Positions 1 to 32,650 of a stretch of 33,091 bases of DNA are shown here, piece after piece. Location of the stretch: positions 1 through 33,091 of IMG/VR virus record IMGVR_UViG_3300032116_000792; one strand, written 5' to 3'. Position 1 is the stretch's first letter, and every line of letters begins with the position of its first letter. The notes beneath the pieces were generated by a model. The model made no database searches, was not told the origin of the DNA, and worked only from the letters and a program-made list of their open reading frames with translations. The DNA comes from a virus. Made by a program: the position numbers and the translations under genes.

Positions 1-417
1 AACTTTTACAAGTATGCCGCCTCTTGCTGCCAAAAGCAGGGCCTCTTTGGCGCACAGAAGTTCTTTGAGAACGAATCCGCTGACGAGCTGAAGCATTACT
101 ACAAGCTCCGTGACTTCTTTAACGACAGAGGGGACGAAGCTGATATGCCTCAAGTGGACGAGGTGGACTTCAAGGAAGGCATTGACTTAATGGGAATCCT
201 TGACGCAGCCTATGAATTAGAGAAGGAGCTTGGAGATTTCTATAACGACTTCTATTTCTCCACGAAGGATGCCACCGTTCAAGTAAGGATTCATAAGTTT
301 GTGAAGATACAGACGAAAGCTGTGGGCGAATATGGTGACCTGATTGCACGTCTTTCTCTCGTTTCGGAATGTCCCGGTGGTTTGTTAATTTTCGACCAAG
401 AACTCGGCAATAAATAA
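1..417 (+). CDS. Ferritin-like diiron protein, 5' end outside window
   Basis: The frame is open from base 1 to the TAA at 415-417, giving 138 residues; the start lies upstream. The ATG at 145 is internal and would remove a helix. The visible part reads as ferritin helices A (end) to D: a Tyr/Ala helix followed by QKQGLFGAQKFFE, then the metal-site signature ADELKHYYKL with Glu29 and His32 (E50 and H53 of E. coli FtnA), an NDRG turn, a helix AAYELEKEL with Glu72/Glu74 near FtnA E94, and a last helix KFVKIQTKAVGEY with Gln104 near FtnA Q127. FtnA E130 appears lost (Ala/Val). Ferritins oxidise Fe(II) and store it as mineral in a 24-mer cage; activity here is inferred. The next gene starts 2 nt downstream, so it is probably co-transcribed with virion genes. 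A Dps-like or rubrerythrin-like relative is the main alternative. Confidence 0.7.
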   Translation, partial: NFYKYAASCCQKQGLFGAQKFFENESADELKHYYKLRDFFNDRGDEADMPQVDEVDFKEGIDLMGILDAAYELEKELGDFYNDFYFSTKDATVQVRIHKFVKIQTKAVGEYGDLIARLSLVSECPGGLLIFDQELGNK

Positions 418-419
418 CA

Positions 420-3400
420 ATGGCTAAACTTCCTTGCCCTCCGCAGTCCCGTATCTACACGCTGAAAGATACGGGCGAAACTATGTCGTACGACCAGGTG
501 CGTGAGTACCTCATGTCCAATCCCGAATTGTGGCTTGGCAAGGGAGAGGCGAAGGAGATTAAGAAGGAGGAAAAGTCCACAGAATTTGGCAAAGCACTAT
601 CTGCAAGTAGTAGATTTAAGCCTAAAGAACTTGTTGTATTTGATACTCCTATTGTTGGCCCTAATGGAAATAAACTTGTTGCCTACCAATGGGCTTACGA
701 GTGGACAATGAAAGAAAACAAAGAGGGAGAACTTGTTGATAAGCGAATTTCTGATTGGACTCAAGCGGAGTCAAGTGCTGAAACGGGAAGAGATGTGGTG
801 CATAAATTTACCGTTCAAAAAACAGATGGAAGCACCGTAACCGTAAGCTCAGAAACTATACCTTCGCTTTTAGGATATGTTGATGCCAAACAAATGAAAG
901 GGCTGCCTTCTGTTGTTTCTGCCGTTAAGACATTGGCAAAACAACGTATGCAGCTTGCCATAATGGAGGCCCAAGAGGCGGAATATAAAGCCTTAGAAGA
1001 AAAGTTTGAGAAAGCCGACAAACCAGAAGTAAAAGAAGTGGCAGACCCTGCTGCTGAAAGGTTTGGTATAAATAAAGAGGGCGAGTTTACCACCTATGGA
1101 ATGGGTGATGTGTCCGTTAGGCAAGATAATAGATACAATTGGGATACCAAAAAATTTGATAAAGTTCCCCTAAGCAGAGAAACTATTAAAGAATTAGAGC
1201 GCAAATGGGTTTTAAAAAGAATAGAAGAGGCTGGAGGTAAATACCCAAGCAATATCACCGACCTAAGAAATCGTGTTAAGAGACAAGAAAGGAGAGTAGA
1301 AGAAGCTACAAACTCAAAGATTACAATAAAAGAACAAGAAGGGGAGAAGGCCGAAGGCAAGAGGGCAGACCCCGTTATTGAAGCCCTTGACAAGGGGAAA
1401 ATCAAAGGCGTAGCCGGAATGAACGCTGCCGTATGGAATGCCACTATTGATGCCATCAAAGCAGCCTACCTTGCAGGAAAGTCCGTTGCCGAAGCCATCA
1501 ACGAAGGCATTGCCTATCTGAAGAGTAAAGGGGAGGAGGTGTCTAAGTATCAGGATGCTCTTGATGACATACGGAAAGCAGAGAAGCCGAGAGTGGCTAC
1601 ATTCTTTTCGGGAGCCGGAACAATGGAGGCGGCTCTCCCAAAGTCTGAGTCTGTAATGGCTGTTGAGTATAGCCCTACATATATGAAGGCGTACAACGAT
1701 GCTTTCGGAACAGAGTATGAAGCAAGGGATGTAACGCAAATAGACCCACAAGAAGTTAAAGCCGCTAACCCAAACATCTTCCACGCTTCTCCTGTCTGCA
1801 AGAACTTCTCAAAAGCAAAGAATGCTAAGACAGTGGAGAAATCCGATATGGATTCTGCTGAAGCTGTGGCACGCGTAATTCGTGAGGCAAAACCTCCTGT
1901 GGTTACGATAGAGAATGTGCCAGGATACAAAGACACCGTTCCATTTGAGGCAATAATTAAGGCTCTTGAGGATGCTGGATACACTTACGATGTTGGGGTG
2001 TATAATGCCGCAGACTATGGAGGCGTTCAAAACAGAAAGCGTTTACTTGTCCGTGCCGTAAAGGATGGTAAACTTCCTGCGCTTCCCAAAAAGCAAAAGC
2101 CCGGCGATTGGTACAAGGCTGTAGAAGACTTAATTGACGATGCCCCCGATGCTCCATTCACAACCAAAACAAAGGAAAAGAACTGGGAGCAAGAGAGGAT
2201 TGATGAAATGATAGCAGATGAGAGGTTAGACCCATCCAAGCCCATCATTACAATGGGTGCTTCTGCCTATCAAGGAGAGGCTGCGGCAGCAAATTCTGGC
2301 AATCCATCTCCTACACTTTTAAGTTCATCAAATCAAGTCCCTCGCATCATTATGCCTGATGGCAGAATAAAACGGGTTACACCCGAAATGATGAAGCGGC
2401 TTATGGACTTGCCTCTTTCCTATCCTGTCCCTGTCGATGCCAAGGTGGCAAAAGAGGTGCTTGGGAATGGAATGGATGGCGCATTCACAAAGGCTCTTAT
2501 TGAGCCATTGATTAAGCAACTCTCCCCCGAACAAGAACTCAAACAAGCCTTCGACAAATGGAAGAGCGAAACGGGCAAGCTCGGCATCGTTCCTAATTGG
2601 GAACGGCAGGCCAAGGCTGACATTGAGCTGTTCAATGCCGCCAAGAAATACCTCCTTACGAAAATAGGCCAAGGAGCTTACGCCTTTGAGCAGTTCCTAA
2701 AGGACCTCGCAAAAGCGAAGGTGGAAAACATTGACGAAGACAGAAGTAAGTGGAAGAAGTTTTACAATGACACGATAAAGGAGGCAGCTCCGGCAGAAGA
2801 AGGTAAGGCCACAACGCCTCCGCCTCCTGTAACGCCTCCGCCACCAACAGGCAAAAGAGAAATGCCCGAAGGGGAAGGAAAAGAAACGGAGAAGCCTATT
2901 TTAGGCAGAGCGTTCAGAGGAACTACAGATGAAGCCCTTGCTGAGAAACTTGCTAAAATGGGGCTTTATAGAAAGCCCGCAAGCATAGAGGAAGCCGACA
3001 AAATAGGAGCAGAAACAGTGGCTCTTATGGGTGTGGACAAGGCCATAGAACTTGGCGTAAAAGGAGATGTTCCTAATGGCTTTGTTCGTATGGGAATATT
3101 CAAGGCTATTCTTGCCGACCTTAAAAAACAAAGAGATGCTCTTGTTATTAAGGAGGGCCCTGCGGGAGAGCAAGCATATATGGATGCTCTTGATGAAATA
3201 AACGACAAGAGGGCGGAGGCTATGGCTGCGTTTTCTCCATCTGTTACGGCAGCTGGTCAAATCCTTAGAGGATTTCAGGAGATAATAAGAAATGAGGAGT
3301 TTGAGTTTGACTATGAATTTCGTAAGGACAATTTTAAAACATTGTTTGGCGATGAGGCATACACGAAAGAAATAGACGAGCGATTTAAGGAGTATGACAA

Positions 3401-6260
3401 GAAACTGAAGGATGCCGCCAAGAAGCGCAAAGAACTTGAAAACAGAATAGCAGAACTTGAAGCGCAGGGCATAGTTGATAACATTAATCAAGAGAAAAAG
3501 ACATCGCCTGTTTCGTTTTTTAAACAAGCAGCAGAGCGTGTAAGGAAATTAAAATTTTCTCGCCCAGGGATGTTCAGTGCGGCCACTCCGGCCACGCTTG
3601 CCTGGGATGCCACTATTGAGGCTGTTGCTGTTGTTCTTGACGCATCAGGAACGCTTGAGCAAGCTATTGTTGCAGGGATTAAAAAACTTAAAACAACAGA
3701 TTGGTACAAGTCGCTTACGGATGCTAAAAAGAGTGCTGCCGAAAACGAAGTGGCTAAATATGTTAAAGATGGCTACATTCTGAAGGCAACTATAGATGAG
3801 GATGGAATTATACAGATTCCTTCAGGATTGCTGCGTTCTTATGTTACAGCAGGAATTAATGATGCTCAGGCAATCATAGATGATATGCTCTCCTATCTGA
3901 AAGAAGCGGATAGCGAAATAACGGCATCAGATGTACGCACTGCAATATTAGAGGCGGGGAAGAGAGAAGCACCGACACAGAATCAAATCACTCAAAGCGT
4001 TAATGACCTCAAATCCATTATAAGGATGTTAGGTCAGCTTGAGAAGATAAGGGCAGGGGAAAGAATCACCAAGAACGAAGGCAAGAAAAAGCAAATGCGG
4101 GATGCTGTTGCCAACCTTAAAAAGACCATAGAGGACAAGCATCTTGAAGTTTTTGGAACAAAGCCTGGCGCATTGACGGATGAGCAAAGATTGGCTAACA
4201 TAAAAAAGAATGCACAGAAGCGCATTAACGATTTAAGGGCCATGAAGCCTCGTCCCGAAGTAAGGGAACGAGTAAAGTGGGATGCGGAAATGGAGGCCCT
4301 TGCCAACGAAGAGTTTCGATTGAAAGAAAAATGGGATGATGAATTTGCTCAGGCTCGTTATAAAAAACTAAGCGACTGGCAGAAGTTTGGAAGAGGGGCG
4401 TATCTTGGAATCAATCTATCAAAAACCGTAATGTCGGGAATGACCGACCTTGGTATTATACTCATTCAAGGAGCCACACTACCATTTAGGAGCGCAAAGC
4501 TAACGGCAAAGGCATTGGCAAACATGGCAAAGGTTATTCTCAGCCATGACGAGTTTGTGAGGCAACAAAGAGTGATTAATGAAAGCGACTTGTATAGAGT
4601 TGCAAGGAAGAGTAATCTTGATATGCCTCAAGTGTCAGGAATGGAGATTGACAAATTGGAAGAATCGAGCCTGGGCGCATTTGGTGAAAAAGCATTTGAC
4701 GTTCTGTTTAAGCCATTTGATTACATTCCAAAGGTGGGGCCGAAAATGTATGAATGGGCCAAGAAGCACATTAACATCCCAAGGGTTTTGAACAGAATGC
4801 AGACCTCCTATCTAAACACGCTTAGATATGGAACATTTGCATTGAGCGCAAGAAGCCTTATGGAAAAAGGCATCACCTATCAGGATAATCCGCAAGCCTA
4901 TAAGGATGTTGCTGAGGCAATTAATACAATGAGCGGTCGGACAAAAATTGGAGCGGAGAACTCCCCCGCTGTGATGAGGTTCTTGAATCTTGTATTTTAT
5001 TCGCCAAAGAATGCCATGTCATTGCTTAAAATATACACTCCTTATGTGTTAATCGAAATAGGCAAGAAAAGAGCAGAGGCATCGGGATTTGCAGGAATGT
5101 CAGAGGCACAGCAAACAATGATAAGAACGCTTGCGGGTGCTATAGCAATTCCTTCGGCTCTCTATCTTATGATGAAGGCTCTCACGGGATGGGATGAAGA
5201 AGACGAGGAAGAAAAGAAAAAGGAAGGAAATGTATCTTTGGACATAGAGAATCCTCAAAGCAGCGCATTCGCTAAGATACGCATAGGCAATCAGCTATTC
5301 GACCCTTGGGGAGGAAGAGCGCAGCTCATAACATTACAAGCCAGGCTCATTATACATTACGTTGGAAATGGAAGGGCTTACAAAGACCCATACACGGGAA
5401 TAGAAAAGAGGCTTTCGGAGGTTCAAAGATTTAAACACCCTGTCGGTCTTGCAGGGGAATACATCAAAGGAAAGTTTTCTCCATACGCAAGAGCAGCCTT
5501 TACATTAGGAACTTCCGAGCAAGTGAAGGGCAAGAGGTGGTATGTAAGAAGACCTTTAGATGGTGGTAAAGAATTTGACATCTTAGACCCTATAAAAGAA
5601 AGCTACACAAACATTACATACGAATCCGTAAAGGAGCTGTATGGTAACCAACCATTGACAGTAAGCGAAATAATGACCTTATTCCTTATTGCGGGTGGAG
5701 GCGTTACCACGCTGAACAATCAGGATGAGCAATCAATTCTCACCAAAGTGAGAGAAAAGCTGTCGCCCGAAGAAGACGAAAGGCGGAAGTTTGCCAAAAA
5801 CCTTGCATCCTACATTAAGGACGAAAATATGATAGGAGCTGAAGAGGTGTATGACCAAGCAATAGGCGTGAAAGGCAATGAGAAAAAGTCCGAACTGATT
5901 ACAAAAAGAAGGGAGCACGCAGACAAACTATTCTCTTCGGCAAAGAAGGATGGCATTGCCTCTAAGTGGACGATAGATGTAGAGGACAGGCCAAAGGTGT
6001 TTGCTTTGTTATACAAAAACGAGCCTATTAAAACCACCTCCCGAACTAAGGAAGAGAAAAAGGTTGTTTACGATGCCTACAACAATCTTACGCCCGAAGA
6101 AAAAGCGGAAATTAAGTTTGACTATGAGATGGAATATGAGGAGTTGATAAATATTGCCAAGGGCCTTGACCATCTAAATAAAACTCCGGGGAAATACTTG
6201 AAGGAGGTTAATCAAGTGGAATGGGTGAAGGAATATAAAAAAGCAACAGGCAAGAAGTAA
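420..6260 (+). CDS. Giant polyvalent protein with embedded DNA cytosine-C5 methyltransferase
   Basis: 1946 residues, with the start ATG 2 nt after the ferritin stop. Residues about 391-700 form a complete C5-methyltransferase: motif I TFFSGAGTMEAA (about 394-405), motif IV SPVCKNFS with nucleophile Cys460, motif VI IENVPGY (Glu498), motif VIII QNRKR (537-541), motif IX RVTPEMMKRLMDLP (about 651-664) and motif X GNGMDGAFTKAL (about 682-693). Such enzymes methylate cytosine at C5 using S-adenosylmethionine. A Pro-rich linker follows (about 800-815). Two related helical segments (about 336-372 and 1055-1105) share a W(N/D)ATI(D/E)A...AI..GI pattern. Near the C-terminus are a hydrophobic segment (about 1565-1591) and a block with AFAKIRIGNQLFDPWGGRAQ (about 1615), resembling the large polyvalent-protein-associated domain LPD38. 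Proteins of this kind are known in phages and conjugative elements and some are injected with the genome; injection here is inferred. The protein is otherwise Lys/Glu-rich and helical. Confidence 0.8.
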   Translation: MAKLPCPPQSRIYTLKDTGETMSYDQVREYLMSNPELWLGKGEAKEIKKEEKSTEFGKALSASSRFKPKELVVFDTPIVGPNGNKLVAYQWAYEWTMKENKEGELVDKRISDWTQAESSAETGRDVVHKFTVQKTDGSTVTVSSETIPSLLGYVDAKQMKGLPSVVSAVKTLAKQRMQLAIMEAQEAEYKALEEKFEKADKPEVKEVADPAAERFGINKEGEFTTYGMGDVSVRQDNRYNWDTKKFDKVPLSRETIKELERKWVLKRIEEAGGKYPSNITDLRNRVKRQERRVEEATNSKITIKEQEGEKAEGKRADPVIEALDKGKIKGVAGMNAAVWNATIDAIKAAYLAGKSVAEAINEGIAYLKSKGEEVSKYQDALDDIRKAEKPRVATFFSGAGTMEAALPKSESVMAVEYSPTYMKAYNDAFGTEYEARDVTQIDPQEVKAANPNIFHASPVCKNFSKAKNAKTVEKSDMDSAEAVARVIREAKPPVVTIENVPGYKDTVPFEAIIKALEDAGYTYDVGVYNAADYGGVQNRKRLLVRAVKDGKLPALPKKQKPGDWYKAVEDLIDDAPDAPFTTKTKEKNWEQERIDEMIADERLDPSKPIITMGASAYQGEAAAANSGNPSPTLLSSSNQVPRIIMPDGRIKRVTPEMMKRLMDLPLSYPVPVDAKVAKEVLGNGMDGAFTKALIEPLIKQLSPEQELKQAFDKWKSETGKLGIVPNWERQAKADIELFNAAKKYLLTKIGQGAYAFEQFLKDLAKAKVENIDEDRSKWKKFYNDTIKEAAPAEEGKATTPPPPVTPPPPTGKREMPEGEGKETEKPILGRAFRGTTDEALAEKLAKMGLYRKPASIEEADKIGAETVALMGVDKAIELGVKGDVPNGFVRMGIFKAILADLKKQRDALVIKEGPAGEQAYMDALDEINDKRAEAMAAFSPSVTAAGQILRGFQEIIRNEEFEFDYEFRKDNFKTLFGDEAYTKEIDERFKEYDKKLKDAAKKRKELENRIAELEAQGIVDNINQEKKTSPVSFFKQAAERVRKLKFSRPGMFSAATPATLAWDATIEAVAVVLDASGTLEQAIVAGIKKLKTTDWYKSLTDAKKSAAENEVAKYVKDGYILKATIDEDGIIQIPSGLLRSYVTAGINDAQAIIDDMLSYLKEADSEITASDVRTAILEAGKREAPTQNQITQSVNDLKSIIRMLGQLEKIRAGERITKNEGKKKQMRDAVANLKKTIEDKHLEVFGTKPGALTDEQRLANIKKNAQKRINDLRAMKPRPEVRERVKWDAEMEALANEEFRLKEKWDDEFAQARYKKLSDWQKFGRGAYLGINLSKTVMSGMTDLGIILIQGATLPFRSAKLTAKALANMAKVILSHDEFVRQQRVINESDLYRVARKSNLDMPQVSGMEIDKLEESSLGAFGEKAFDVLFKPFDYIPKVGPKMYEWAKKHINIPRVLNRMQTSYLNTLRYGTFALSARSLMEKGITYQDNPQAYKDVAEAINTMSGRTKIGAENSPAVMRFLNLVFYSPKNAMSLLKIYTPYVLIEIGKKRAEASGFAGMSEAQQTMIRTLAGAIAIPSALYLMMKALTGWDEEDEEEKKKEGNVSLDIENPQSSAFAKIRIGNQLFDPWGGRAQLITLQARLIIHYVGNGRAYKDPYTGIEKRLSEVQRFKHPVGLAGEYIKGKFSPYARAAFTLGTSEQVKGKRWYVRRPLDGGKEFDILDPIKESYTNITYESVKELYGNQPLTVSEIMTLFLIAGGGVTTLNNQDEQSILTKVREKLSPEEDERRKFAKNLASYIKDENMIGAEEVYDQAIGVKGNEKKSELITKRREHADKLFSSAKKDGIASKWTIDVEDRPKVFALLYKNEPIKTTSRTKEEKKVVYDAYNNLTPEEKAEIKFDYEMEYEELINIAKGLDHLNKTPGKYLKEVNQVEWVKEYKKATGKK

Positions 6261-6269: not shown

Positions 6270-9200
6270 ATGATACACAGGATAGACAGGGTGAATCCCG
6301 ATGTGGACGACAGGGTGATAAAGCCTAACGAGGCACGGATGGCCGTGAACCTCCGTTTCGGAGCCTCTACAGAGGACACCAACCTTTCGGGCGGAACGCT
6401 CGTGTTAGGCAATACGGAACTCCCGTTCACCCCTCCTGCTGGCACGAACAAGGTGGTGGGCGTATATGCCGACCTTGAATCCCGGAACGTTTTCTTTGCC
6501 CTCTACAATAATCAGGGAGCGAACACAGCGGCCCAGCACGGCATCTATCGCATATCAGGAGCGGACAATTCTGTACAGCCTATTGTTCAGGGAGCGTGGC
6601 TGAACTTTCAATCAGACGATGCCTATAACGTTTCCATAACGGGCGTGGACGGCAAGCTGTATTGGACGGACAATGTGAACGAGCCTCGCATGGTGAATGT
6701 CGAAAAGGGCATCAGAACGCAAGCGGGCGACACAGAGGATGTCTATCCCATAGCTGCCGTTCAGGATTGGTTCTATTCGCAAATCAAAAGGCCGCCGGGG
6801 CAGCCGCTTGTCATTACGCCCGTATTAGGACAGGAGGAACTCAGCAGTACATTTACAAACAAAACCCTAACGAACACGGGGCTTCAGTTTTCCTATTATT
6901 ATGTGTACGATAACTTTGAGGAAAGCCGTCTTGCTCCGTTTACATTCAACAGCTATGCCGTTTATAATGTTACACTGACAATCCCAGAGCCCGAGTTTTC
7001 GGAATACACAACATACAAACAGCTCATTAAGGCTGTTGTGATTGTTGTACGGAACGGGAATGATGGGGCGTGGAGGGAGCTTGTATATGAAACCAATGAA
7101 GGAACAAAAAGTTCATGGTTTTTTACAGACATTCTAACGGCTGTCAAAAACATAGTAGCCTCGGACATAATAGATGCACGATTTGACAGTGTTCCTTTGA
7201 AGAGCGGAACAAACGAAATTGCCCAAAACAGAATCAATCACGGCAATTATGTCTTGGATGAGCAGGCCGTAAGTGGCGTAACGTTTGAGGCAAGTATAAT
7301 TTCAATATCTGATGTTGTAAACTCAGGGGGTGACTTCCCTATAACAGACGCAAAATATTTTCTAAACTCATTTGTCCCTTGGGGAAGATATACAATAGGG
7401 CTTGAGTTTGTTGATAAATTTGGTCGCACCTATCCTGTTAATAACACGGTGGAGGTAACGACTCCTCCCATGAAAATGGCATATCAAAATCTTGCGGGAA
7501 CTTGGTATGCGCCAGGAAACAAAATATCAGTTTTCACGGGCAATGAATATAGGTTTGTTAATGTTCCTGTTTACGAACAAGGTAAGTCACTTGCTACAGG
7601 AAATTATTTTAACACCGTTGCTCAATATAAAATAAAAGGAACACTTCCTGATTGGGTGGACAGGGTGAACGTTGTAAGAAGCAAAGCAAAAAACATTGTC
7701 ACTATGCACCAAAGCATAGGAAATATGTATTTGTGGTATGAAACAGAAGCCCAAGAGCCAAGGTTTTTCTCTTTCGTTCAGCAGATTAATACGCAATATA
7801 ACATACAAGGCGTATTGAGAAATTATAATATGTCTTCTATTTATAATGCAGACGAAAAAACAAAATATACATTTAAGGGGTATGTCATCAAGTTTAACAA
7901 TAACGAACCATTTGTTTTAACAGATAATTTGTATGTAACTATTTATCAGTCTTATGTTGCGGCAGCTATATCAGGCGAGCAAAACGTAAACAACTATGCA
8001 AACTACAAAATCCTCATTCCAAATTACCTTGATGATGTGGGGTTGTATTCAGAGGTGGTCAAATATAAAGTGCATACAATTGATGGCGACCGAATTTATA
8101 TCAAAGCAAACGACCCAATTTTAAGACACCCTATTGCGGTGAACAACCCAAATATTCCGCAGGCTGTCTATCTTACACCCTATTCCTATATGATAGGGGC
8201 CTTTGACCCAACAGTAAGTTCCGTTACGGCTGCACAAAATCCCGATAAATACTATCCGCTGATATACAACTTTACGCTGACAAAGGAGGTGAATGTAGAT
8301 GAGCAAATCGTTTATGTTACAGAAAACTCCTACAGTGCAGAGGAGTTTAAAACACTTGTTGGGCCAAGCGGGAATAATGAAATTATAGGATGGGCAAAAG
8401 GCGATGCGGCCTTGTGTTTGGCAAGAAAAACCTATTCGGCTACGGTGGCAACAGTGAATATGTATATATTGCCCGAAGCTCAAAATCCAGAAAACGGAAA
8501 GCCAATTATAAATCAAGGTAAAGAAATCCGCCAGCCCGCATTTGATTGGCTTGGTACGTTCATCTCCATGTCGCCTCGTGACATTTACGCACAGCAATGG
8601 AATCAGAACATAGGCCAAATCAACACCACCAACTACAAGGAATCTCAGAACAGAAGGCTGCCAAGCAACATTTGCTTTTCCGGCTCCCTTGTTCAGGGGA
8701 CACAAGTGAATGGCCTGAACAAGTTCAACTCCCTTGACTTCCGTCAGGCTCCTGCTGAGAACGGCCCCATCACCTCCCTTGTCACTACGAATGCGACACA
8801 GAGAGAACCAGGCGTTCTCCTTGCCATAGGAACGTACGGAGTAGGTTCGTTCTATTACGATGCCATTCAGCTTACAAATGTGGACGGCACAAACAACGTA
8901 ACGACAACGGATTCCTATCTCGCCTCACAGAGGCCGTTGCTTGGACAATACGGAACGTCAAGGCCAATGAGCGTAACAAAGACACCCTTAGGCACTGTCT
9001 ATTGGTGGAGTGATGTGGTGAACGATTTAATACGCTACACGAATGCCGGGCTTGAAAGGCTTGGGAATACGTTCTCGTTTGCCAACTATCTCCGCAGAAC
9101 CTATAACGAAAATCCGCTCCTGATTACATGGTATGACCAAGTGACGGACGAAATCAATCTGCTGGGAACAGGCGTGAGAGCTGCCGTGTTCTCAGAACGC

Positions 9201-9710
9201 TATAAAACGTTTCAGGGGGAGCGGGATTATTTCCTGAATGGAATCACACCGGAACGGGCAATAGGACTTCCTACAAAGCAATTTTGGTTTGTAAACGGAA
9301 GGGTGTGGATGGCAGACGTAAATCAATCGGGCGTGGATGATAACTTCATTTTTGGTGCGTACAGAAATCCCAATCTCACCATCATAACTAACGAATCCCC
9401 TGCCGCTGTTAAGCGTTGGAATCAGGTGAAAGTGTTTGGCAACAGGCCGTCCTCCACCATCCTGAGCACAACAGGGTTTGACACAATAACAGAAGAAACT
9501 CTCACGTCCTTTATTGCTCCGGGTTATTACATTCAAAGAAAGGGGGATTGGGGAGCTGCAATACGCAGGGCCTCTAACACGGAAGGAGGACTACTTGCAG
9601 GGAAACTTATGGAAAGTAGGATAATATATTCTAACTTTGCGTTTAGCGCACAAGGATTCGACAAGCTGAATTTTATAGAAATAAAGAGTAACGTTTCAAT
9701 AGTTCAATAA
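6270..9710 (+). CDS. Large beta-rich virion protein (muzzle / tail-hub type)
   Basis: 1146 residues with no signal peptide or membrane segment. The N-terminus combines an RIDRVNPDVDDR start, a VVGVYADLESRNVFFALYN block (about 63-81), a GIYRI segment and VDGKLYWTDNVNEPRMVNV (about 126-144). That strand-turn pattern with LYWTDn..PR is typical of beta-propeller-like structural proteins of crAss-like and other Bacteroidota podoviruses, such as the muzzle protein that closes the tail tip. The rest is a succession of short beta-strand sequences rich in Asn, Thr, Tyr and Val. It sits between the polyvalent gene and the portal gene, in keeping with a tail role. Bases about 7260-8530 are visibly richer in A/T than the flanks, which could mark a faster-evolving or exchanged central domain. 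The structural role is reasonably sure; the precise name is an inference from pattern. Confidence 0.55.
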   Translation: MIHRIDRVNPDVDDRVIKPNEARMAVNLRFGASTEDTNLSGGTLVLGNTELPFTPPAGTNKVVGVYADLESRNVFFALYNNQGANTAAQHGIYRISGADNSVQPIVQGAWLNFQSDDAYNVSITGVDGKLYWTDNVNEPRMVNVEKGIRTQAGDTEDVYPIAAVQDWFYSQIKRPPGQPLVITPVLGQEELSSTFTNKTLTNTGLQFSYYYVYDNFEESRLAPFTFNSYAVYNVTLTIPEPEFSEYTTYKQLIKAVVIVVRNGNDGAWRELVYETNEGTKSSWFFTDILTAVKNIVASDIIDARFDSVPLKSGTNEIAQNRINHGNYVLDEQAVSGVTFEASIISISDVVNSGGDFPITDAKYFLNSFVPWGRYTIGLEFVDKFGRTYPVNNTVEVTTPPMKMAYQNLAGTWYAPGNKISVFTGNEYRFVNVPVYEQGKSLATGNYFNTVAQYKIKGTLPDWVDRVNVVRSKAKNIVTMHQSIGNMYLWYETEAQEPRFFSFVQQINTQYNIQGVLRNYNMSSIYNADEKTKYTFKGYVIKFNNNEPFVLTDNLYVTIYQSYVAAAISGEQNVNNYANYKILIPNYLDDVGLYSEVVKYKVHTIDGDRIYIKANDPILRHPIAVNNPNIPQAVYLTPYSYMIGAFDPTVSSVTAAQNPDKYYPLIYNFTLTKEVNVDEQIVYVTENSYSAEEFKTLVGPSGNNEIIGWAKGDAALCLARKTYSATVATVNMYILPEAQNPENGKPIINQGKEIRQPAFDWLGTFISMSPRDIYAQQWNQNIGQINTTNYKESQNRRLPSNICFSGSLVQGTQVNGLNKFNSLDFRQAPAENGPITSLVTTNATQREPGVLLAIGTYGVGSFYYDAIQLTNVDGTNNVTTTDSYLASQRPLLGQYGTSRPMSVTKTPLGTVYWWSDVVNDLIRYTNAGLERLGNTFSFANYLRRTYNENPLLITWYDQVTDEINLLGTGVRAAVFSERYKTFQGERDYFLNGITPERAIGLPTKQFWFVNGRVWMADVNQSGVDDNFIFGAYRNPNLTIITNESPAAVKRWNQVKVFGNRPSSTILSTTGFDTITEETLTSFIAPGYYIQRKGDWGAAIRRASNTEGGLLAGKLMESRIIYSNFAFSAQGFDKLNFIEIKSNVSIVQ

Positions 9711-10605: not shown

Positions 10606-12924
10606 ATGTTCGCACCAGACCTCTCAGCCCCCTTTGACAAGAAGAAATCCAACGAGTTTGGCAAAGCCTTTGCTACGGGCTTGGAGTCTTGGCATCTGAT
10701 GCAAATTGAAAGCCCCAATTTCCCCAAAAGGAGATGGGCCGAAAACTATCAATACGCATTAGGGAATCAAACCTATCTGCGTACCACGCAACCCATTGAC
10801 AACCTTGTAGGAACGGACAGTCAGACACTCCCCGGAGCTGACTTGCGCAACATGAAGCTCACCTCTACAATATTGGAAAGTATTGTAGGGAAGCTGAACA
10901 AGCAACGCTTTCGTCCAACAGTTTCCATGATAGATGCGCTTGCTATGGGGCAGCGCAACGACATGAAGGCCAAAATGGAGCTTGCCATGTATCTCAAGCA
11001 GCAAGGCATGGAGATGGAGCAGATAACGCAACAGCTCGGCCTTACGCCTGATGAGATTCCAATGGACACCACAGAGCTGCAAATAATGATAGATTGTATG
11101 CCTCAATTCGTTGAGGAAATGAATCTTGAATTAGCTCTGAATAAAATAGGGCACGAAAACAGTCTTGAAACCCTTGCGAGAATGGCAGACTATGATGATG
11201 CCATTACAGCCGTGAGGGGTCATTATATTAATCGCATCAATGGCAAACGGCAAATCGAATGGCTGGACCCGCTTAATAGCGGCCATAGTATGTCCTTTTA
11301 TCCTGATGGGCGTGATATTGTTTGGAGCTACAGAATACGCCCTATCCCTGTTGAACAAGTACGCATCGAAGCGCAGGAGTTCCTCACGGACGAACAACTC
11401 AGCAACCTGAGAGGAGGGCAATTCAGCCTTCTTTACAATTGGCTGTTTTGGTGGAACGCCTCCAATCAGCAAAACTATTTGACAACATTCACAAACACAT
11501 ATACAGACTATGTACTCGTCATGGACTTTGAGTTCGTCACCACCGACCTACTCTATACAAATGTCAAAAACGGGAGGGCTTATAATGGATATACCAAGAA
11601 AACTCCCGGAAAGGATGGCGATGTGTACACAGCTAAGGTGCAGAACCTCTTCGGGGGGAAGTATATATGCGGCTCAGGCTACCTGTACGACTACGGGGTT
11701 AAGCCTGGGATTCGTCAGCCTATCGTAACACGGAACGAGGATGCCTTTAAGGTGAACGCCTCTAAGGTGTATGGCTCATTTGTGTGGTATCACTCCTCAA
11801 TGGTGAGAGGAGAATCCATCTCCATCATTGACAGAGCCAAGCCGCACATTGACGCTATTGAAGACACTTTCAAGAAGTTCAAGACATACGTAAAAGAGTT
11901 CCTTCCTTGGATGCTTCGTGTGGACCAGGATGCCTTGGCCGACCTTGCCATGAAGGAAGGGGATGAAGTGACGGCAGAGGACTTAATGACTACGCTCCTT
12001 GAAAGGGGAATAGGCGTTGTTTCTTCTTCTGCCTATAAAGGATTCCATAACGCCTCCGTTAAGGATGCCATTGCTATGATAGGCAATGACGGGGGAGGAA
12101 ACCTTCAAATATTGTGGAGTTTGCTGCTTCAGCAAATTAACCTCCTGCACGATGTTGTGGGCGTTCCTAAGCTTGATACAGGAGGGGGTGTTAGTCCTGA
12201 GCAAGGAAAGGCTGTAAGTCAAATGCTCCTTCAGGGGAGCGAAAATGTTCTCTCAGGGATTATGGCCTCCAAAATAGGGCTGTACACAACCCTTTGGGAA
12301 AACCTGATGTATGACATCATGCAGACAGGGGAGGTGGGCGTAGTGCAAAACAAAGCCTTCTCCATTCCTCAAGGCAATCCTGACGAGCGCATTCCCAATC
12401 TTGTTGTAGAGCCATTACCTACGGACATAGACTGGCAGGACTTGTTTGCCAAAGCCCAACAGGCTCTCGCAGCAGGAAGCCTCACAATGGACCAATATGC
12501 CTACCTGAAAATCATAGACAATATGAAGCAGGCATGGGGCTATTTGTCCGTTCAGCAGAAGCGCAATGACATCAAGAAAGCGCAAATGCAGCAAATGGCC
12601 GACCAAGCCAACACGGAGCGTCAGATGATGAGCAATCAGCAGGCGCAGGAAGGCAAGGAAAGGCTTGAACAAATTAAAATTATCGGGAATGTAATTCAGG
12701 AGTATGCAAAGGCCGCCTTTGCCAACCCTATGAATAATCAGAATCCTGAAGTAATTTTGCAGAGAATACAAATAGAATTAGAGAAAATGTATGGAAACAC
12801 AGGAAACGCAAGTGGAGAACAGCCTTCCGCAGGAGGGCCTCCAGTACAGCCAACAGGAGGAGCAGAACAGTTTGCCGTTCAAGGTGGCGAAGGTGGAGGA
12901 CTTCCCTTCGAACAACCTGCCTGA
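10606..12924 (+). CDS. Portal protein
   Basis: 772 residues; the ATG directly follows the previous TAA. The assignment rests on size, on position just before a scaffold-like and a capsid gene, and on pattern: an N-terminal segment with RRWAENYQYALGNQ, the LTSTILESIVGKLNKQRFRP helix (split here: LTSTILESI, VGKLNKQRFRP), an alternating alpha/beta wing with IEWLDPLNSGHSMSFYPDG, a long helical stretch around GESISIIDRAKPHIDAIEDT, and a stem/crown part with GVPKLDTGGGVSPEQGKAVSQ. The last 40 residues are a Gly/Pro/Gln-rich tail. Portals form the dodecameric DNA channel at one capsid vertex and anchor the tail. The last 134 nt are also coding in another frame for the scaffold N-terminus. Confidence 0.75.
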   Translation: MFAPDLSAPFDKKKSNEFGKAFATGLESWHLMQIESPNFPKRRWAENYQYALGNQTYLRTTQPIDNLVGTDSQTLPGADLRNMKLTSTILESIVGKLNKQRFRPTVSMIDALAMGQRNDMKAKMELAMYLKQQGMEMEQITQQLGLTPDEIPMDTTELQIMIDCMPQFVEEMNLELALNKIGHENSLETLARMADYDDAITAVRGHYINRINGKRQIEWLDPLNSGHSMSFYPDGRDIVWSYRIRPIPVEQVRIEAQEFLTDEQLSNLRGGQFSLLYNWLFWWNASNQQNYLTTFTNTYTDYVLVMDFEFVTTDLLYTNVKNGRAYNGYTKKTPGKDGDVYTAKVQNLFGGKYICGSGYLYDYGVKPGIRQPIVTRNEDAFKVNASKVYGSFVWYHSSMVRGESISIIDRAKPHIDAIEDTFKKFKTYVKEFLPWMLRVDQDALADLAMKEGDEVTAEDLMTTLLERGIGVVSSSAYKGFHNASVKDAIAMIGNDGGGNLQILWSLLLQQINLLHDVVGVPKLDTGGGVSPEQGKAVSQMLLQGSENVLSGIMASKIGLYTTLWENLMYDIMQTGEVGVVQNKAFSIPQGNPDERIPNLVVEPLPTDIDWQDLFAKAQQALAAGSLTMDQYAYLKIIDNMKQAWGYLSVQQKRNDIKKAQMQQMADQANTERQMMSNQQAQEGKERLEQIKIIGNVIQEYAKAAFANPMNNQNPEVILQRIQIELEKMYGNTGNASGEQPSAGGPPVQPTGGAEQFAVQGGEGGGLPFEQPA

Positions 12925-13837
12925 GGACGCTCCTATTGAAGACAATCTGCCTCCCGCAGCGGAAGGAGAGCAGCAGGCGCAGCCTGAAGGGAATATAGAC
13001 GATATAGAAGCCCTTCGTGCTAAACTTGCCCAGCTTGAAGAACAACTGCAAAGCAAGGAGGCTCCGAAGGTGGAATACAGGATGCCCGAAGAGGTGCTCA
13101 ACCTCCTCAACAATCCTGAAACACTTTCCGTCCTGAATGAGGACTATGAGAACAAAACCGTTCTTGACCTCATCAAAACGGCCTTTAAGGAGGCCAATCC
13201 GTGGGCGAAGACAGACCGCCACATTGAAGCGCACTTGAGAAGACAATATCCTGATATTGACTTTGATATTCCCGAAAATCTCGGACTTGCCGAGGAAGAC
13301 TATGACGCTATTGCGTGGCAGGCCGAAGGCATCCGCCAACAGCTCATTTCCCAGCAGAACGAGATAAGAGGGCAGTTAGAGTCGGCAAAGAGCCCTGCTT
13401 TCACGCAAGAGGATTTGGATGGCTATCAACAGCAATTCAATATGCTTGTAGAGGATGGCATCAAGGGCATCAAGCCTGAGCCTTTAGCCTTGGAAATTCC
13501 GGGGTATAAGATGCCTCAGCTTGACTTTGAGAAAGTGAAGGATATTGTTTATAGTGATGCTGTTCCATTGTCGTTAGACGCAAATGGCAATGTGTGGCCT
13601 AACATGAGGGCTGCACAAGCTATGGCAGAATTGGAACTGCTCAAGAGCCAGATTCCGGCGATGTTGGAAGCGGCACGGAGAGCAGCCCCGAAGGAGGCCG
13701 TTGAAGCGATTAATAGAACGCTGAACAATCAAGTACCCGCTCAGAGCGCAGCACCAATCGACCCAAAACAGCTATCAAGTGCGAAAGCACCGATGCTAAA
13801 TGGAATGAGAATCGTGGGCGTTCAGGCAACATTTTAA
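12791..13837 (+). CDS. Capsid scaffolding protein (probable)
   Basis: 348 residues, lying between portal and major capsid protein, the usual place for a scaffold. It is strongly acidic and Gln-rich at the N-terminus, with a coiled-coil segment IDDIEALRAKLAQLEEQLQ at about residues 69-87, a long helical middle (IAWQAEGIRQQLISQQNEI; a second helix AMAELELLKSQIPAMLEAAR at about 278-297) and a basic/Ser-Ala C-terminal tail that could bind the capsid shell. The ATG at 12791 lies within the portal gene, giving a 134 nt overlap; the next in-frame Met is about 100 residues on, inside what looks like conserved sequence, so the long form is preferred. Scaffolds guide procapsid assembly and leave before or during DNA packaging. 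No protease motif is visible. Confidence 0.6.
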   Translation: METQETQVENSLPQEGLQYSQQEEQNSLPFKVAKVEDFPSNNLPEDAPIEDNLPPAAEGEQQAQPEGNIDDIEALRAKLAQLEEQLQSKEAPKVEYRMPEEVLNLLNNPETLSVLNEDYENKTVLDLIKTAFKEANPWAKTDRHIEAHLRRQYPDIDFDIPENLGLAEEDYDAIAWQAEGIRQQLISQQNEIRGQLESAKSPAFTQEDLDGYQQQFNMLVEDGIKGIKPEPLALEIPGYKMPQLDFEKVKDIVYSDAVPLSLDANGNVWPNMRAAQAMAELELLKSQIPAMLEAARRAAPKEAVEAINRTLNNQVPAQSAAPIDPKQLSSAKAPMLNGMRIVGVQATF

Positions 13838-13860
13838 AACAATTTTAACAAAACAAGAAA
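13838..13860 (+). promoter_or_regulatory. A/T-only-type leader of the capsid gene
   Basis: The 23 nt between the scaffold stop and the capsid ATG are almost entirely A and T (AACAATTTTAACAAAACAAG then AAA) and contain no GGAGG-like site. In Bacteroidota, strong translation initiation relies on A-rich unstructured leaders, so this fits the high expression expected for a capsid protein. Confidence 0.45.
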
Positions 13861-15312
13861 ATGGCAAATCCATTGTACGGGGTACAAGGCTCATCAGCCA
13901 ATAGCCCACAAACCGTAGCAGATGCTGCGCTCCTGTCCGGCCTCGCCGACAGCACCTCATTCGTCCGTGATTTTTGGCCCACCTTGCTTGACCGTTATCC
14001 TGACCGTCAGCTCATCGAAAACGGCCTTATGGCTCACCTCGTTGATAACAAGGCTTTCGTAGGTGTTCAGACTAACACTCAGCAGGTGTTCCACGCTGAA
14101 CAAGATTCAGTGTTAGCTACCCTCACTGTTCAATCTGCTCCCACTTCTTTGGGCGGTAACGCATACAGAATCGTTGTAGATGCTACGCAGTATAACGGAA
14201 CTACAGGCCCCACTGGCTTCTTCAACTACGCCACTGTAGGACAGAATTTTCAGCTTGCTAACAATCCTAATGTGATTGCTAACGTTTATGCTGTTGCTTT
14301 CCCAAGCACCACAGGCGCAGCCACGCACACCATTGACGTTTACAGCAACGGAACCGTAAACCTTGCTACAGCTATTGCTGCTGGCGACACTCTCCTTCCT
14401 CAAGATGCTGTGAATGATGTAAACGGAGACTTCCCTAACGGTAGCGTTCGTGGATGGGCTCGTTATGGCGTGAACTTCCAGTATATGTCTACTGGTTCTG
14501 CCATCGTTGGTCAGGACACCTACAATCAGGCGTTCATGTTCCAATTAGAAGGTGGTCAGTCCATCCTTGCTCCTCGTATCTTCGCTGATGCTCTGATGAC
14601 CGCAATGCTGCGTAAGTCTGCTGCCATCACCGTTGGTAAAGGCGATAGCTATGGCGGTAAGCAAACCACCGTTGGTTTCGTATCTGCTGCTCAGGCTTTC
14701 GGCTTGACAGATGACTATGCTGCGGGTGGCGTTCAAATGTCTAACTTGGAAGACATCGGCATCCGTCTTCAGAACCGTGGTGCTGGTACAGAACTTGACC
14801 TTTGGGGTGGATACAACTTCCTTCAGAGCATTCAGCGTAACGCTCTGTCTCCTCTGACGGGCGGTGCTGTTCAGTACATCTCCGGTGAAATGAACGATGG
14901 CAATGGTCGTCCTGGCCTGAAGAAGTCCCTTGGTCACTTCATCCTTGGTAAGTTTAAGGTGAACCTGAACGAGGCTTCTGAGTGGGCGCACAAAGCCATG
15001 TACTCTCCTGATTTGGGTGGTTCTTCCCTCACTTCCGGCTATTGGGCTAATGCTTTCTGCATCATCCCGAAAGAGCAAGTGGCCGTTCCTCGCGAACTCA
15101 CCAACACCACTTACACCGTTACTGCCCCGATGTTCCGTGTTCTTCAGTTGAAAGCTCCTGTAACTACAGGCGGTACTCCAGTGATGAACCAAATCGTTAA
15201 GCGTGACCCTGCTCACTTTGGCGCAATGAAGTATCAAATCATCAACAACGAATACTTCGCTGCTCAAACCATGCTTGCTAACAAGCTGTACTTCGGAGGA
15301 ACTATCATCTAA
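13861..15312 (+). CDS. Major capsid protein
   Basis: 483 residues directly after the scaffold. The sequence shows an N-terminal arm (ADAALLSGLADSTSFVRDFW), an insert rich in Gly/Thr/Asn (about 100-200) and a long alpha/beta core ending in FAAQTMLANKLYFGGTII, fitting an HK97-fold capsid subunit. Codon use supports very high expression: nearly all Arg codons are CGT (about 14 of 16 counted by eye) and Gly is mainly GGT, unlike the AGA/AGG and GGA habit of the neighbouring genes. A rho-independent terminator follows 20 nt after the stop. Several hundred copies per virion are expected for this product. The exact family is not identified by name. Confidence 0.8.
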   Translation: MANPLYGVQGSSANSPQTVADAALLSGLADSTSFVRDFWPTLLDRYPDRQLIENGLMAHLVDNKAFVGVQTNTQQVFHAEQDSVLATLTVQSAPTSLGGNAYRIVVDATQYNGTTGPTGFFNYATVGQNFQLANNPNVIANVYAVAFPSTTGAATHTIDVYSNGTVNLATAIAAGDTLLPQDAVNDVNGDFPNGSVRGWARYGVNFQYMSTGSAIVGQDTYNQAFMFQLEGGQSILAPRIFADALMTAMLRKSAAITVGKGDSYGGKQTTVGFVSAAQAFGLTDDYAAGGVQMSNLEDIGIRLQNRGAGTELDLWGGYNFLQSIQRNALSPLTGGAVQYISGEMNDGNGRPGLKKSLGHFILGKFKVNLNEASEWAHKAMYSPDLGGSSLTSGYWANAFCIIPKEQVAVPRELTNTTYTVTAPMFRVLQLKAPVTTGGTPVMNQIVKRDPAHFGAMKYQIINNEYFAAQTMLANKLYFGGTII

Positions 15313-19625: not shown

Positions 19626-22600
19626 ATGGCTAATTTTCTTGACGACCTTTCCGTATATAACGCCAAGGCAGCCTTGGTGATTTCTCAAGTGGCCGCTGAT
19701 GGCAACACAGACAAGGCCAACATGATGAGCAGTTTGAAAACAACTGCCAACGACACCACGCTTTCGGAAGCCATTCGTCTTAATGCCCTGACGGCTCTCA
19801 TTAATTTGGGAAGCCTTCTTGACATTCCCCTGCCTCCCTATTTCCCGCTGACAACAACGTATGCTAATACGGAAACATATGTAGGCATACACGATGACCT
19901 GACAGGACTACAAGGAGGCGCACCAGGAGAATACTATCACGTTACACTTGCCGAAAGAAATAGCATAGCCAATGCCGCTACGGTGGGGGATATTTCATGG
20001 GCCAACCTTACAGGCAGCTACACAGACAATGTGACATTTGCCGCGCAGTTTAATGCAAAGCAGGATGCCCTTACGGGTCCCGGCTATGTGAAAATGGTGG
20101 GAGGCGTTGTAACGTATGATACAAGCACATTCCTATCCACCATCAGCGGCATAGCTGCCGGAGGGGAACTGAGCGGAACATACCCCAATCCTACGTTAAG
20201 CAACGCTGCTGTAATCAGCAAAGTGCTTACGGGATTCACGGGGACATCCCTACCTATTCAAATTACATCTGCTGACAGCATATTGTCGGCCATTCAGAAG
20301 CTGAACAATAACATAGCAAGCATTATTGTTAGCCCTCCGGGGGTGTCCACTGTTGCTCTCACAACAAACTCAGGAACGGTATTCACGACAACAACAACGG
20401 CTCAGACAGGAGCTGCTACGCTTGATGTTTCGCTCAACACGCAAACGGCAAGTAAATTCCTCGCCTCTCCAACGAGTGCTTCAGGAACGCCTACATTTCG
20501 GGCTTTCTCCTCCATAGACCTCCCCGACAGCGGAGCAACGGCAGGGGTATACGGAAGCGCCTCTCTGATTCCGGAAATCACTGTGGATGCCAAAGGGCGC
20601 ATCACGGACATTAAAACTGTAGCCGCTGCTGCCGGAGGTCAAGTGAATAGCGTTACGCTCACCATTCCTTCCATATTCGGCACTGTAACGAACACGGGAA
20701 CGGCCTCTGCTGTTAATTTAACTTACGGCCTTGTCAATCAGACCGCAAACTATGTATGGGCAGGGCCCGTATCAGGAGCGGCAGCAGCTCCCGCTTTTCG
20801 CCTTTTAGTAAGCGATGACATTCCTGCTTTACCCATAAGCAAAATCACGGGGCTGACAGAAACGCTAAGAGGGTATTTAACAACAAGCCTTTCGGATGGA
20901 AGTATTTGGATAGGGAACACTTCCAATGCTGCTGTTCCAAGGGTGATGTCAGGGGATGTCACCATTAGCAACTTAGGCGTAACGGCAATTGGAGCCGCTA
21001 AGGTGCAATACTCCATGATTCAGGATGTAACGACACAGACATTGCTTGGCCGTTACGATGCCCTTGATGGGGAAGTTCAGCAAATTACATTGTCGGGAGA
21101 CTTCGTTCTTGATTCAGGAACGGGTGTTCTTTCTCTTGACGCTCCTGTCGCTCCTGTTGTAACAACAAAGGGCGACCTTCTTGGTCACGATTTGACAAGT
21201 CAGGCAAGGCTTCCATCAAGCGGAATAGATGGTGACCTTTTGATTGTGGACGGTGCTGAGAGCCTTGGCCTCAAGTGGGTGACGGCTCAGGGGGATGTAG
21301 AGGTGGACACCACGCTTTTGGATGGAACGCTTAACATTACAGCCGGAGCTGTTACGCTTGCCAAGATGGCAAACCTCGCTGCCAATAGAATTATAGGCAA
21401 CAACACAGGAAGTTCTGCTACACCTCTTGCCCTCACAGGAACGCAAGTGACGGCAATGCTTGACCAGTTCAGCACAACGGCAAAAGGCTTAGTTCCTGCT
21501 GCGAGTGGTGTAGGAGATACGACAAAGTATCTTCGTGGAGATGGAAGCTGGCAAGCCATTACAGGAACAGGAACTGTCACTTCTGTTTCTGTTACAACGG
21601 CCAATGGGTTTGCCGGAACGGTGGCAACGGCCTCAATAACGCCCGCCATTTCTATGTCCCTTAATAGCCTCACGGGCGTTCTGAAAGGGACAGGAGCAGC
21701 AATAGCTGTGGCTACGGCGGGAACGGATGTTGTTACGCCTGGTCAAATCACGCAGACATCAGGAGCGGGCTCAGGACTGACAATGGCTTCCGGCAATCTG
21801 CTTGGACGTGTAACATCATCGGCAGGACCAATTGAGGCTATTGCCGTAAACTCTTCGCTCTCCCTTAGCCTCCCATCGGGAGTGCCCACCCTCGGCCTGA
21901 ATCTCGGCAACGGGAACGTCTTTACGGTGCAGCAGCAGATGCCTTCCATAAGGCTGAACGGAAGCACAAGTGGATTTATTTCTTTCACGCCCCCTGCTAT
22001 AGCAGGAGCGCAGGCATACACATTGCCTTCTGCGTTCCCAGGAGCAGGGACAACAAGTTATTTAACAAGCAATGATGCGGGGGTGTTGGCATGGGCTTCG
22101 GCAGCAGGAACAACGACAGCATCTGTTACATTTGATGCCGTTGCTGGAGATACGGCTCCAAAAGTGTTTAATGGTAGCCAGCCAATGACAATTGGCTATG
22201 CCACCGTAGGCGCACAGCAGCTAAACGCCAACCTCACAGGACTTTCTGCTCTTACATATGCAAGCGGAACGCCCTTCGTGAAGATGACGGGAGCGGGGAC
22301 GTTCAGCCTTGACACGAACACATACATTTCAGGAACGACAACACAATATGCGGTTCTTGTGGGAGGGGCGGCAAATTCAATTGCCTCCATTACGCCTGTT
22401 GTTTCAAACAAGTTGCTCATCAGCAATGGCACTTCTGCCAATCCGGGATGGACAGATGCTTCGTATTTGGCAACAACAACGCAATACGGCATTCTGTACA
22501 GCAGCGCAACAAATGTTTTGTCAGAGATTACTCCTCCTCTTACTTCCGGCTTGTTCCTTCAATGGACAGGAAGTGGATATACATGGGCATCAGGAGGAGG

Positions 22601-31129: not shown

Positions 31130-31708
31130 ATGGCTAATAAAAATTTAAATGGTAAAACAATAAATTGTGGATTCTGCGAGAAGCCATTTTACATTCCAAA
31201 GAACAGATTTGAAACTGCGAAGTTTTGTTCATTATCTTGTAAATGGAAGGCAGAGATTACAAAGGAAAAAAGAAATTGCCTGTATTGCAATAAAGAATTT
31301 GAAGTTATTGCTAATAGAGGAACTACTGCAAAATATTGCTCCAATCCTTGTAAGGGTAAAGCATACAATAATCGCAACGGAACCATAACTACAAATTGCG
31401 GGAATTGTGGAATTGAGATACGAACATCCCCATCTCGTAAAAGAATTTTTTGCAGCACCAAATGTAGAGGAATCGGTCATAGAGTCGAAACATTTAAAAC
31501 TAATGGTGGTGTTAGAAAAGCCTTGAAAACAAGGGGTTTGATTGTTTCTTGTCAAAAGTGTGGCTATTCAGAGCATCCAGAGATATTGGGAGTCCATCAC
31601 AAGAACAAAAATAGACATGACAATAGAATGGAAAACCTTATTGTTTTATGTCCAAATTGTCATTCATTGGAACACGCGAGGTCAATTGTTCATTCGGTAA
31701 ATAAATAG
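31130..31708 (+). CDS. Zinc-ribbon HNH endonuclease (probable selfish element)
   Basis: 192 residues. Three successive zinc ribbons: C13/C16/C33/C37, C50/C53/C70/C74 and C90/C93/C108/C112, the second pair in each written as (F/Y)CS..CK-like. A C-terminal HNH domain follows: CQKC (141-144), the HH pair at 156-157 in [20 protein letters not shown], and [10 protein letters not shown] with C174/C177/H178. HNH enzymes cut DNA using one metal ion; the ribbons would bind target DNA. It stands on the plus strand inside a minus-strand array, has its own promoter and is more A/T-rich than its neighbours, all typical of a free-standing homing-type endonuclease. An ATG at 31125 is out of frame and soon closed. 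Confidence 0.85.
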
Positions 31709-31972: not shown

Positions 31973-32650
31973 CTAAAATAAAACTAATTGAACTGTTGGC
32001 TTATAAGAGGAGTCATACCTTTTATTGTCGCCTTTTGGATATGCGTGTAAAGAATACACAAGGTCTTTTAGCATTGCACTAACTTCCTTTCTGTTGCCCA
32101 AGAACTTAAAATACCTGTGCTTTTTAGTGTATTCACCAAGAGTAACATCAGGGTCTTTTTCTGCCCACTCAGACATAGATGTAAATCCCATTGAACAGGC
32201 CGTCCTTGGGTGCACTTCTGTTCCCTTGTAAAAAACTTGTCGCTCGTGTATTTGGTTGAGCCCCGTGTACACCCAATTGGTTGCCTGATATATGTAGCCA
32301 TTATGCCCAAATGTGTAATCTGCATACGAAACCACACAACAAGGCTTGGGCAGTGCCTTTAGGGCTGCCGAAATAAAAAATGAAAGAGAGTTCTTTTCCA
32401 GCCCATCATTAACACAAAGCCTATTCAACTCAAAGGTTTTAACACGATAGGAATGGAATATACTTTCCCCATCATTCATCACCCTTGGAGGGCATCCAAA
32501 TGTACAGATGCCCACCATTTCGCTGCCTATGAATAACCCGAATGAGTATTCAATGCTTGGTATTCTTTTGGCGTAATGCTTGTAAAGAAGCCATTCCTTG
32601 CATTGAAAGCTGTCAATAGACCTCACCTTGTATTTATTAGCAAGGCTCAT
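31973..32650 (-). CDS. Mom-like DNA adenine modification protein (GNAT fold)
   Basis: 225 residues. Segments diagnostic of the Mu Mom family appear in order: LLYKHYAKRIPSIEYSFGLF (21-40), VGICTFGCPP (46-55), FELNRLCV (73-80), NSLSFFISAALKALPKP (87-103), VVSYAD (106-111) and GYIYQATNWVYTG (118-130). Mom of phage Mu converts adenine in DNA to a carbamoylmethyl derivative and blocks many restriction enzymes; the fold is that of GNAT acetyltransferases. The same chemistry here is inferred. In Mu, Mom is tightly controlled because it is toxic; no such control (for example GATC clusters or a com gene) is evident here. It lies between two small genes in one operon, with 1-4 nt gaps. Length is close to the family norm. 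Confidence 0.85.
   Translation of the reverse strand: MSLANKYKVRSIDSFQCKEWLLYKHYAKRIPSIEYSFGLFIGSEMVGICTFGCPPRVMNDGESIFHSYRVKTFELNRLCVNDGLEKNSLSFFISAALKALPKPCCVVSYADYTFGHNGYIYQATNWVYTGLNQIHERQVFYKGTEVHPRTACSMGFTSMSEWAEKDPDVTLGEYTKKHRYFKFLGNRKEVSAMLKDLVYSLHAYPKGDNKRYDSSYKPTVQLVLF

Follow-up and report, generated by a model that had tools for sequence, protein, structure and literature searches.

A cytosine-C5 DNA methyltransferase within a giant polyvalent protein of an uncultured virus of bacteria, a candidate for delivery with the virion

The giant gene and its neighbourhood

The DNA analysed here (the window) is a stretch of 33,091 bases from an IMG/VR record of an uncultured virus of bacteria. 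An open reading frame at 420..6260 (+ strand, ATG start) encodes a giant protein of 1946 aa, exactly as in the original prediction, and nine relatives have an equivalent gene in this place. Directly upstream, at 1..417 (+), is a ferritin homologue whose 5' end is cut by the contig; the full copy of this gene in one relative (L002:7446-7937) matches a bacterial ferritin in the PDB (E 1.6e-10). The ferritin homologue is kept at the same place in L002 and in a second relative, L003, and may serve in iron storage or oxidant protection within the structural block.

The giant gene ends 9 bases upstream of a gene for a muzzle-like virion protein of 1146 aa (6270..9710, +), which matches phrog_14478 (1.5e-24) and gp97 of Cellulophaga phage phi38:1 (9e-13, 7e-8) and reaches an E-value of only 0.048 with Pfam crAss_MUZ_C. 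A portal protein at 10606..12924 (+) matches phrog_6547 (7.8e-22) and the portals of phi38:1 and Elemovirus. Both have homologues in phi38:1 (gp97 for the muzzle-like protein, gp91 for the portal) and among Elemovirus proteins annotated as structural. Profile searches of the PDB with the muzzle, portal and giant C-terminal alignments matched no chain. Further downstream, a second giant open reading frame (19626-25460, +, 1944 aa) has a weak C-terminal match to a tail needle (4e-4) and no Pfam family. On the opposite strand, at 31973..32650 (-), lies a gene for a Mom-like DNA modification protein (PF25680, 6e-35; phrog_1384, 2e-50), which gives the virus two predicted functions in DNA modification. 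The Mom-like gene was not found in the records of the nine relatives, several of which are fragments. An HNH endonuclease-like protein is encoded near it, at 31130-31708 (+).

All features of the giant lie on the + strand. Its first 45 residues (420..554; MAKLPC...SYDQVREYLMSNPELW) form a conserved N-terminal tag and a candidate virion-targeting signal. Behind the tag is a mobile module (residues 52-306, 573..1337) that is 70% identical to residues 1455-1703 of a neighbouring upstream giant protein in L003. A helical linker (residues 310-390, 1347..1589) is conserved together with the methyltransferase in L002 (dN/dS 0.09). The cytosine-C5 DNA methyltransferase (DCM) domain itself occupies residues 391-700 (1590..2519), carries motifs I-X and is identified by both profiles and predicted fold. 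The region of residues 812-1040 (2853..3539) is partly common to L002, L005, L006, L007 and L009. The remainder, residues 1041-1946 (3540..6257), is a helical C-terminal region termed type A, which is shared with L005 and L007 and has distant relatives in L012, L013, L108-L111 and L113; in its place, L002 has an unrelated-looking region, type B.

The "membrane-type" regions of the original prediction were recovered as hydrophobic stretches in the C-terminal half, clearest at residues 1566-1590, where an acidic run follows. Of the 10 syntenic giants, 7 have such a hydrophobic helix with its acidic cluster (residues 1566-1602, 5115..5225, in the window giant) near the C-terminus; the element also occurs in phi38:1 gp101 and where the LPD38 match of L046 begins, compared with 2 cases among 177,705 residues of control open reading frames. 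A Pfam scan of the window giant returned PF00145 as the sole significant family; no LPD model matched, LPD38 (PF18857) included, and neither an SF2 helicase nor LPD36 was detected. The flanks had been described as LPD-like, and this holds for related proteins rather than for the window giant itself: LPD23 is present in the syntenic giant of L011, and LPD22, LPD23 and LPD38 occur in giants with the same DCM. An hhalign comparison of the window C-terminal region with the LPD38-bearing region of L046 was not significant, and types A and B gave no significant profile match to each other, to phi38:1 gp100/gp101, to Elemovirus gp88 or to L011. AlphaFold modelled the last 906 residues with a mean pLDDT of 62, too low for the model to be used in a fold search.

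Other viral loci link this protein to giants annotated as structural. One part of L108 matches the window C-terminal region (3e-40, 5e-25), and another part matches stretches of gp101 (2e-12) and Elemovirus gp88 (3e-7), with E-values that refer to a small local set. The helical module of the window recurs in a giant of L111 encoded after a muzzle gene and a gene of 484 aa, a layout that parallels phi38:1, where gp101 comes after gp97 and gp100. The giants linked in this way are annotated as virion structural proteins in cultured Cellulophaga and Flavobacterium phages. From its gene block and these domain links, the window giant probably resides in the virion. The prediction that it is ejected with the genome has indirect support, from the same block of muzzle and portal genes, the same links, the precedent of crassvirus cargo proteins and the analogy with the packaging signal of DarB.

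The methyltransferase domain and its clade

PF00145 matches residues 393-694 of the giant (profile positions 4-319 of 324, E 1.2e-29, 104 bits against a cut-off of 22), TIGR00675 passes its cut-off of 100.65 bits with a score of 101, and PHROG 116 matches at 5.7e-41. The motifs follow one another in order: I (TFFSGAG, residue 394), IV (HASPVCKNFS, 455), VI (TIENVPGY, 496), VIII (QNRKRLLVRA, 537), IX (RVTPEMMKRL, 652) and X (LGNGMDGAFTKAL, 681). The AlphaFold model of the domain is confident (mean pLDDT 92.3, pTM 0.88), and its best structural match in the PDB is M.HhaI (E 7e-16, TM 0.72), also the nearest solved protein by sequence (8.8e-11). Profiles, motifs and the M.HhaI-like predicted fold all agree with the prediction of a complete cytosine-C5 methyltransferase at about residues 391-700. 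The further claim that all key motifs are present in order is correct as to order, but motif IV (1782..1811) is noncanonical. Motif IV usually reads P-P-C or P-C, whereas in the window it reads S-P-V-C, with valine replacing proline directly before Cys460 (1797-1799), the predicted catalytic cysteine.

Across the 30 clade members compared, HASPVCK, E498, N499, R539, R541, N683 and G684 are invariant. The target recognition region is little more variable than the core (36% versus 43% mean pairwise identity). Between the window and L002, dN/dS is 0.06 for the DCM (dS 0.86), a sign of strong purifying selection; the portal has a similar value, 0.05, and the muzzle-like protein a higher one, 0.17. 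Sequence and model together lead us to infer that the DCM is catalytically competent.

When viral contigs were scanned for the DCM by means of peptide patterns that include motif IV, 80 loci were returned, of which 57 were analysed. These contained 53 HASPVCK open reading frames (median length 2262 aa, largest 4952): 36 of at least 1300 aa, 9 of 550-1299 aa and 8 shorter, and since motif IV was part of the search pattern, the proportion of 36 in 53 holds for HASPVCK-type enzymes only. When 15 of the giants were scanned against Pfam, the DCM was found in all 15, ART-PolyVal in six, LPD38 in two, and LPD22, LPD23, MuF_C and ParB_N in one giant each. A maximum-likelihood tree placed 45 rows in one clade with support of 100/97 (35 giant, 5 intermediate and 5 short), the short members being nested among the long ones. 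At one locus, L053, a second and free-standing DCM (12877-14577, 566 aa, phrog_116 3e-87) lies a few kilobases from the DCM-bearing giant.

An exact search for HASPVCKN in 84,980 species genomes recovered a single member, a 3980-aa open reading frame of Prevotellamassilia timonensis (L098:530-12472) with motif IV near residue 3225; no clade member was found in 394 other Bacteroidota genomes. Several repeated pairs of 133- and 362-aa open reading frames follow this giant gene. The best plasmid matches to the clade are about 29% identical, and the P. timonensis member scores 398 bits against the profile, compared with at most 66 bits for the ordinary DCMs of the same genome, results on which we rejected a plasmid or cellular origin of the clade. 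Among the matches listed, cultured phages had distant DCMs only, free-standing or shorter. By these sequence comparisons the clade is nearly virus-only. HASPVCK can serve as a marker motif for finding such systems, and possibly new cytosine methyltransferases.

Module exchange at one gene position

Relatives with the same layout came from two scans, the first one and a further one for which the downstream muzzle-like protein was the query. The ten proteins at this gene position, that of the window included, range from 1384 to 2991 aa. All ten begin with the tag of about 45 residues, which was found in no other open reading frame of the retrieved loci, and behind it their modules differ. In L013 (3788-9991), an insertion of about 190 residues splits the tag into two halves.

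Besides the window giant, a single syntenic giant among the nine relatives, that of L002, contains the DCM. The two proteins are 65% identical over residues 310-986 and 86% identical over DCM plus linker; the L002 giant lacks the 52-306 module, and its C-terminal half is a different one. The syntenic giant of L003 has no DCM, its copy of the 52-306 module being in the neighbouring giant gene, and in that of L011 LPD23 (4e-12) is accompanied by a metallopeptidase-like region. Anywhere in the records of the nine relatives, several of which are fragments, a DCM was found only in L002, L007 and L009, and in the latter two it is encoded outside the syntenic giant, by open reading frames 482-648 aa long. 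By eye, and with weak or no Pfam support, the DCM slot contains ParB-like segments in L005 and L013, an acetyltransferase-like segment in L013 and an HExxH-type segment in L012.

Since relatives without a DCM exist, the domain is dispensable for the particle. Its intactness amid exchanged surroundings marks it as a functional module and not debris. An assembly chimera was rejected as the source of this arrangement: the same DCM and linker occur with different flanks in a contig from another metagenome (L002), and independent contigs likewise contain the main modules. The term polyvalent protein, used in the original prediction, is well suited to a gene position at which modules are swapped behind a constant tag and whose DCM has relatives in company with ART-PolyVal, MuF-C, LPD and ParB domains. 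We regard it as almost certain that the window giant is polyvalent and that its DCM is intact. Exchange of effectors at one fixed gene position lets one ask which host defences drive the choice of cargo.

Possible roles and known systems

On balance we favour the view that the giant is a polyvalent protein carried as virion cargo, packed by means of its tag and ejected with the DNA, and that its DCM protects the incoming genome from restriction. The tag of about 45 residues would recruit the giant to the particle, and the modules behind it would be exchangeable effectors, here including a cytosine-C5 DNA methyltransferase. The C-terminal helical region, with its membrane-type helix and acidic cluster, may help the giant to be stored or to pass through tail and envelope. 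At infection the giant would enter along with the DNA. Using SAM from the host, its DCM would methylate cytosines within short target sites on the entering genome and, by analogy with P1 DarB, shield it from the restriction enzymes of the host ahead of early expression. Progeny DNA would receive another, distinct modification from the Mom-like protein. Against this explanation stand the motif IV without proline before the cysteine, the failure to find an SF2 helicase, which the DarB model requires, the existence of relatives without the DCM, and the non-significant direct profile comparisons of the C-terminal region with gp101 and with L046. More tentatively, and with rather less than even confidence, we extend it to the clade as a whole: a nearly virus-only C5 branch may have specialised as a virion-delivered effector in the giants of many uncultured phages, tag-packed, threaded into the cell and methylating before expression with no helicase partner.

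Anti-restriction before any phage gene is expressed, as originally proposed, is plausible given the precedent of P1 DarB; a late-expressed enzyme that methylates progeny DNA before packaging is equally conceivable. This second course is the main rival, although we consider it unlikely. The giant would then be a virion or late structural protein whose DCM acts on newly replicated DNA in the producing cell, with packaged copies as a by-product. The gene does lie in a structural block beside muzzle and portal genes, expected to be late in related phages, and methylated progeny DNA requires no ejected enzyme. Mom of phage Mu modifies progeny DNA in the producing cell in just this way. What such a role leaves unexplained is the constant N-terminal tag, and why the enzyme is kept in giant polyvalent proteins across the clade though free DCMs are common in phages.

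Ejection could also serve another target, the DCM acting on host DNA, RNA or regulation (for example on transcription, or to trigger or blunt a defence) rather than on phage DNA. ART-PolyVal, MuF-C and ParB domains of related giants are predicted to act on host molecules (PMC5512222), and the small difference in identity between target recognition region and core is unlike a fast-changing anti-restriction specificity. We nevertheless hold this to be improbable, as the closest solved relatives are DNA-C5 methyltransferases and DNMT2-type tRNA enzymes score lower. Less probable still is a catalytically dead domain, retained as a structural or DNA-binding remnant. The valine directly before the catalytic cysteine would suit such a remnant, and it was largely rejected in view of the dN/dS of 0.06, the invariant HASPVCK and key residues E498, N499, R539, R541, N683 and G684, and the confident model.

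The favoured role as ejected cargo has its nearest parallel in P1 DarB, likewise a phage giant that contains a DNA methyltransferase domain and is proposed to act at DNA entry. In DarB, 30 N-terminal residues suffice as a capsid-targeting sequence (PMC9024508), to which the conserved tag of the window giant, a candidate targeting signal, may be analogous. DarB combines an N6-adenine (EcoKI/TaqI-like) methyltransferase with an SF2 helicase and LPD36 (PMC5512222). The window enzyme belongs by contrast to a different family, that of the C5-cytosine methyltransferases, and the giant showed neither a helicase nor LPD36, DarB being compared by its published description. The window giant would work like DarB but does not belong to its family. 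With the polyvalent proteins of Iyer et al. 2017 (PMC5512222) it shares a multidomain giant architecture, a structural neighbourhood and the exchange of modules between homologues. The census in the main text of that paper holds adenine methyltransferases only, the word "cytosine" appearing once, in a reference title, and the window giant differs in carrying a C5 enzyme. In the open-licence literature we found no paper joining C5 methyltransferases with polyvalent proteins.

Proteins gp45, gp46, gp47, gp49 and gp50 of PhicrAss001 are encoded near the muzzle gene, were detected in virions by mass spectrometry and have been proposed to be ejected; the sections of the report on which we draw mention no DCM domain in them (PMC10172136). 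The window giant gene likewise adjoins a muzzle-like gene, and the profile of that muzzle-like protein matches no PDB chain. The giants gp101 of phi38:1 and gp88 of Elemovirus, annotated as structural, are encoded downstream of muzzle and portal genes homologous to those of the window and are connected to its giant by domain links through L108-L111; gp101 also has the hydrophobic-acidic element. Neither has a visible DCM or a direct significant profile match to the window giant. The tag offers a testable address for cargo loading in muzzle-type phages.

M.HhaI and M.HaeIII share the fold predicted for the window DCM and the same order of motifs. They are free-standing restriction-modification enzymes with a canonical motif IV, whereas the window DCM is embedded in a giant and has the SPVC variant. 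To our knowledge, P1, whose enzyme modifies adenine, is the main known case of anti-restriction by a methyltransferase delivered as protein. If the role favoured here is correct, a separate and nearly virus-only C5 branch in giants of diverse uncultured phages would show that such delivery has more than one origin and is common.
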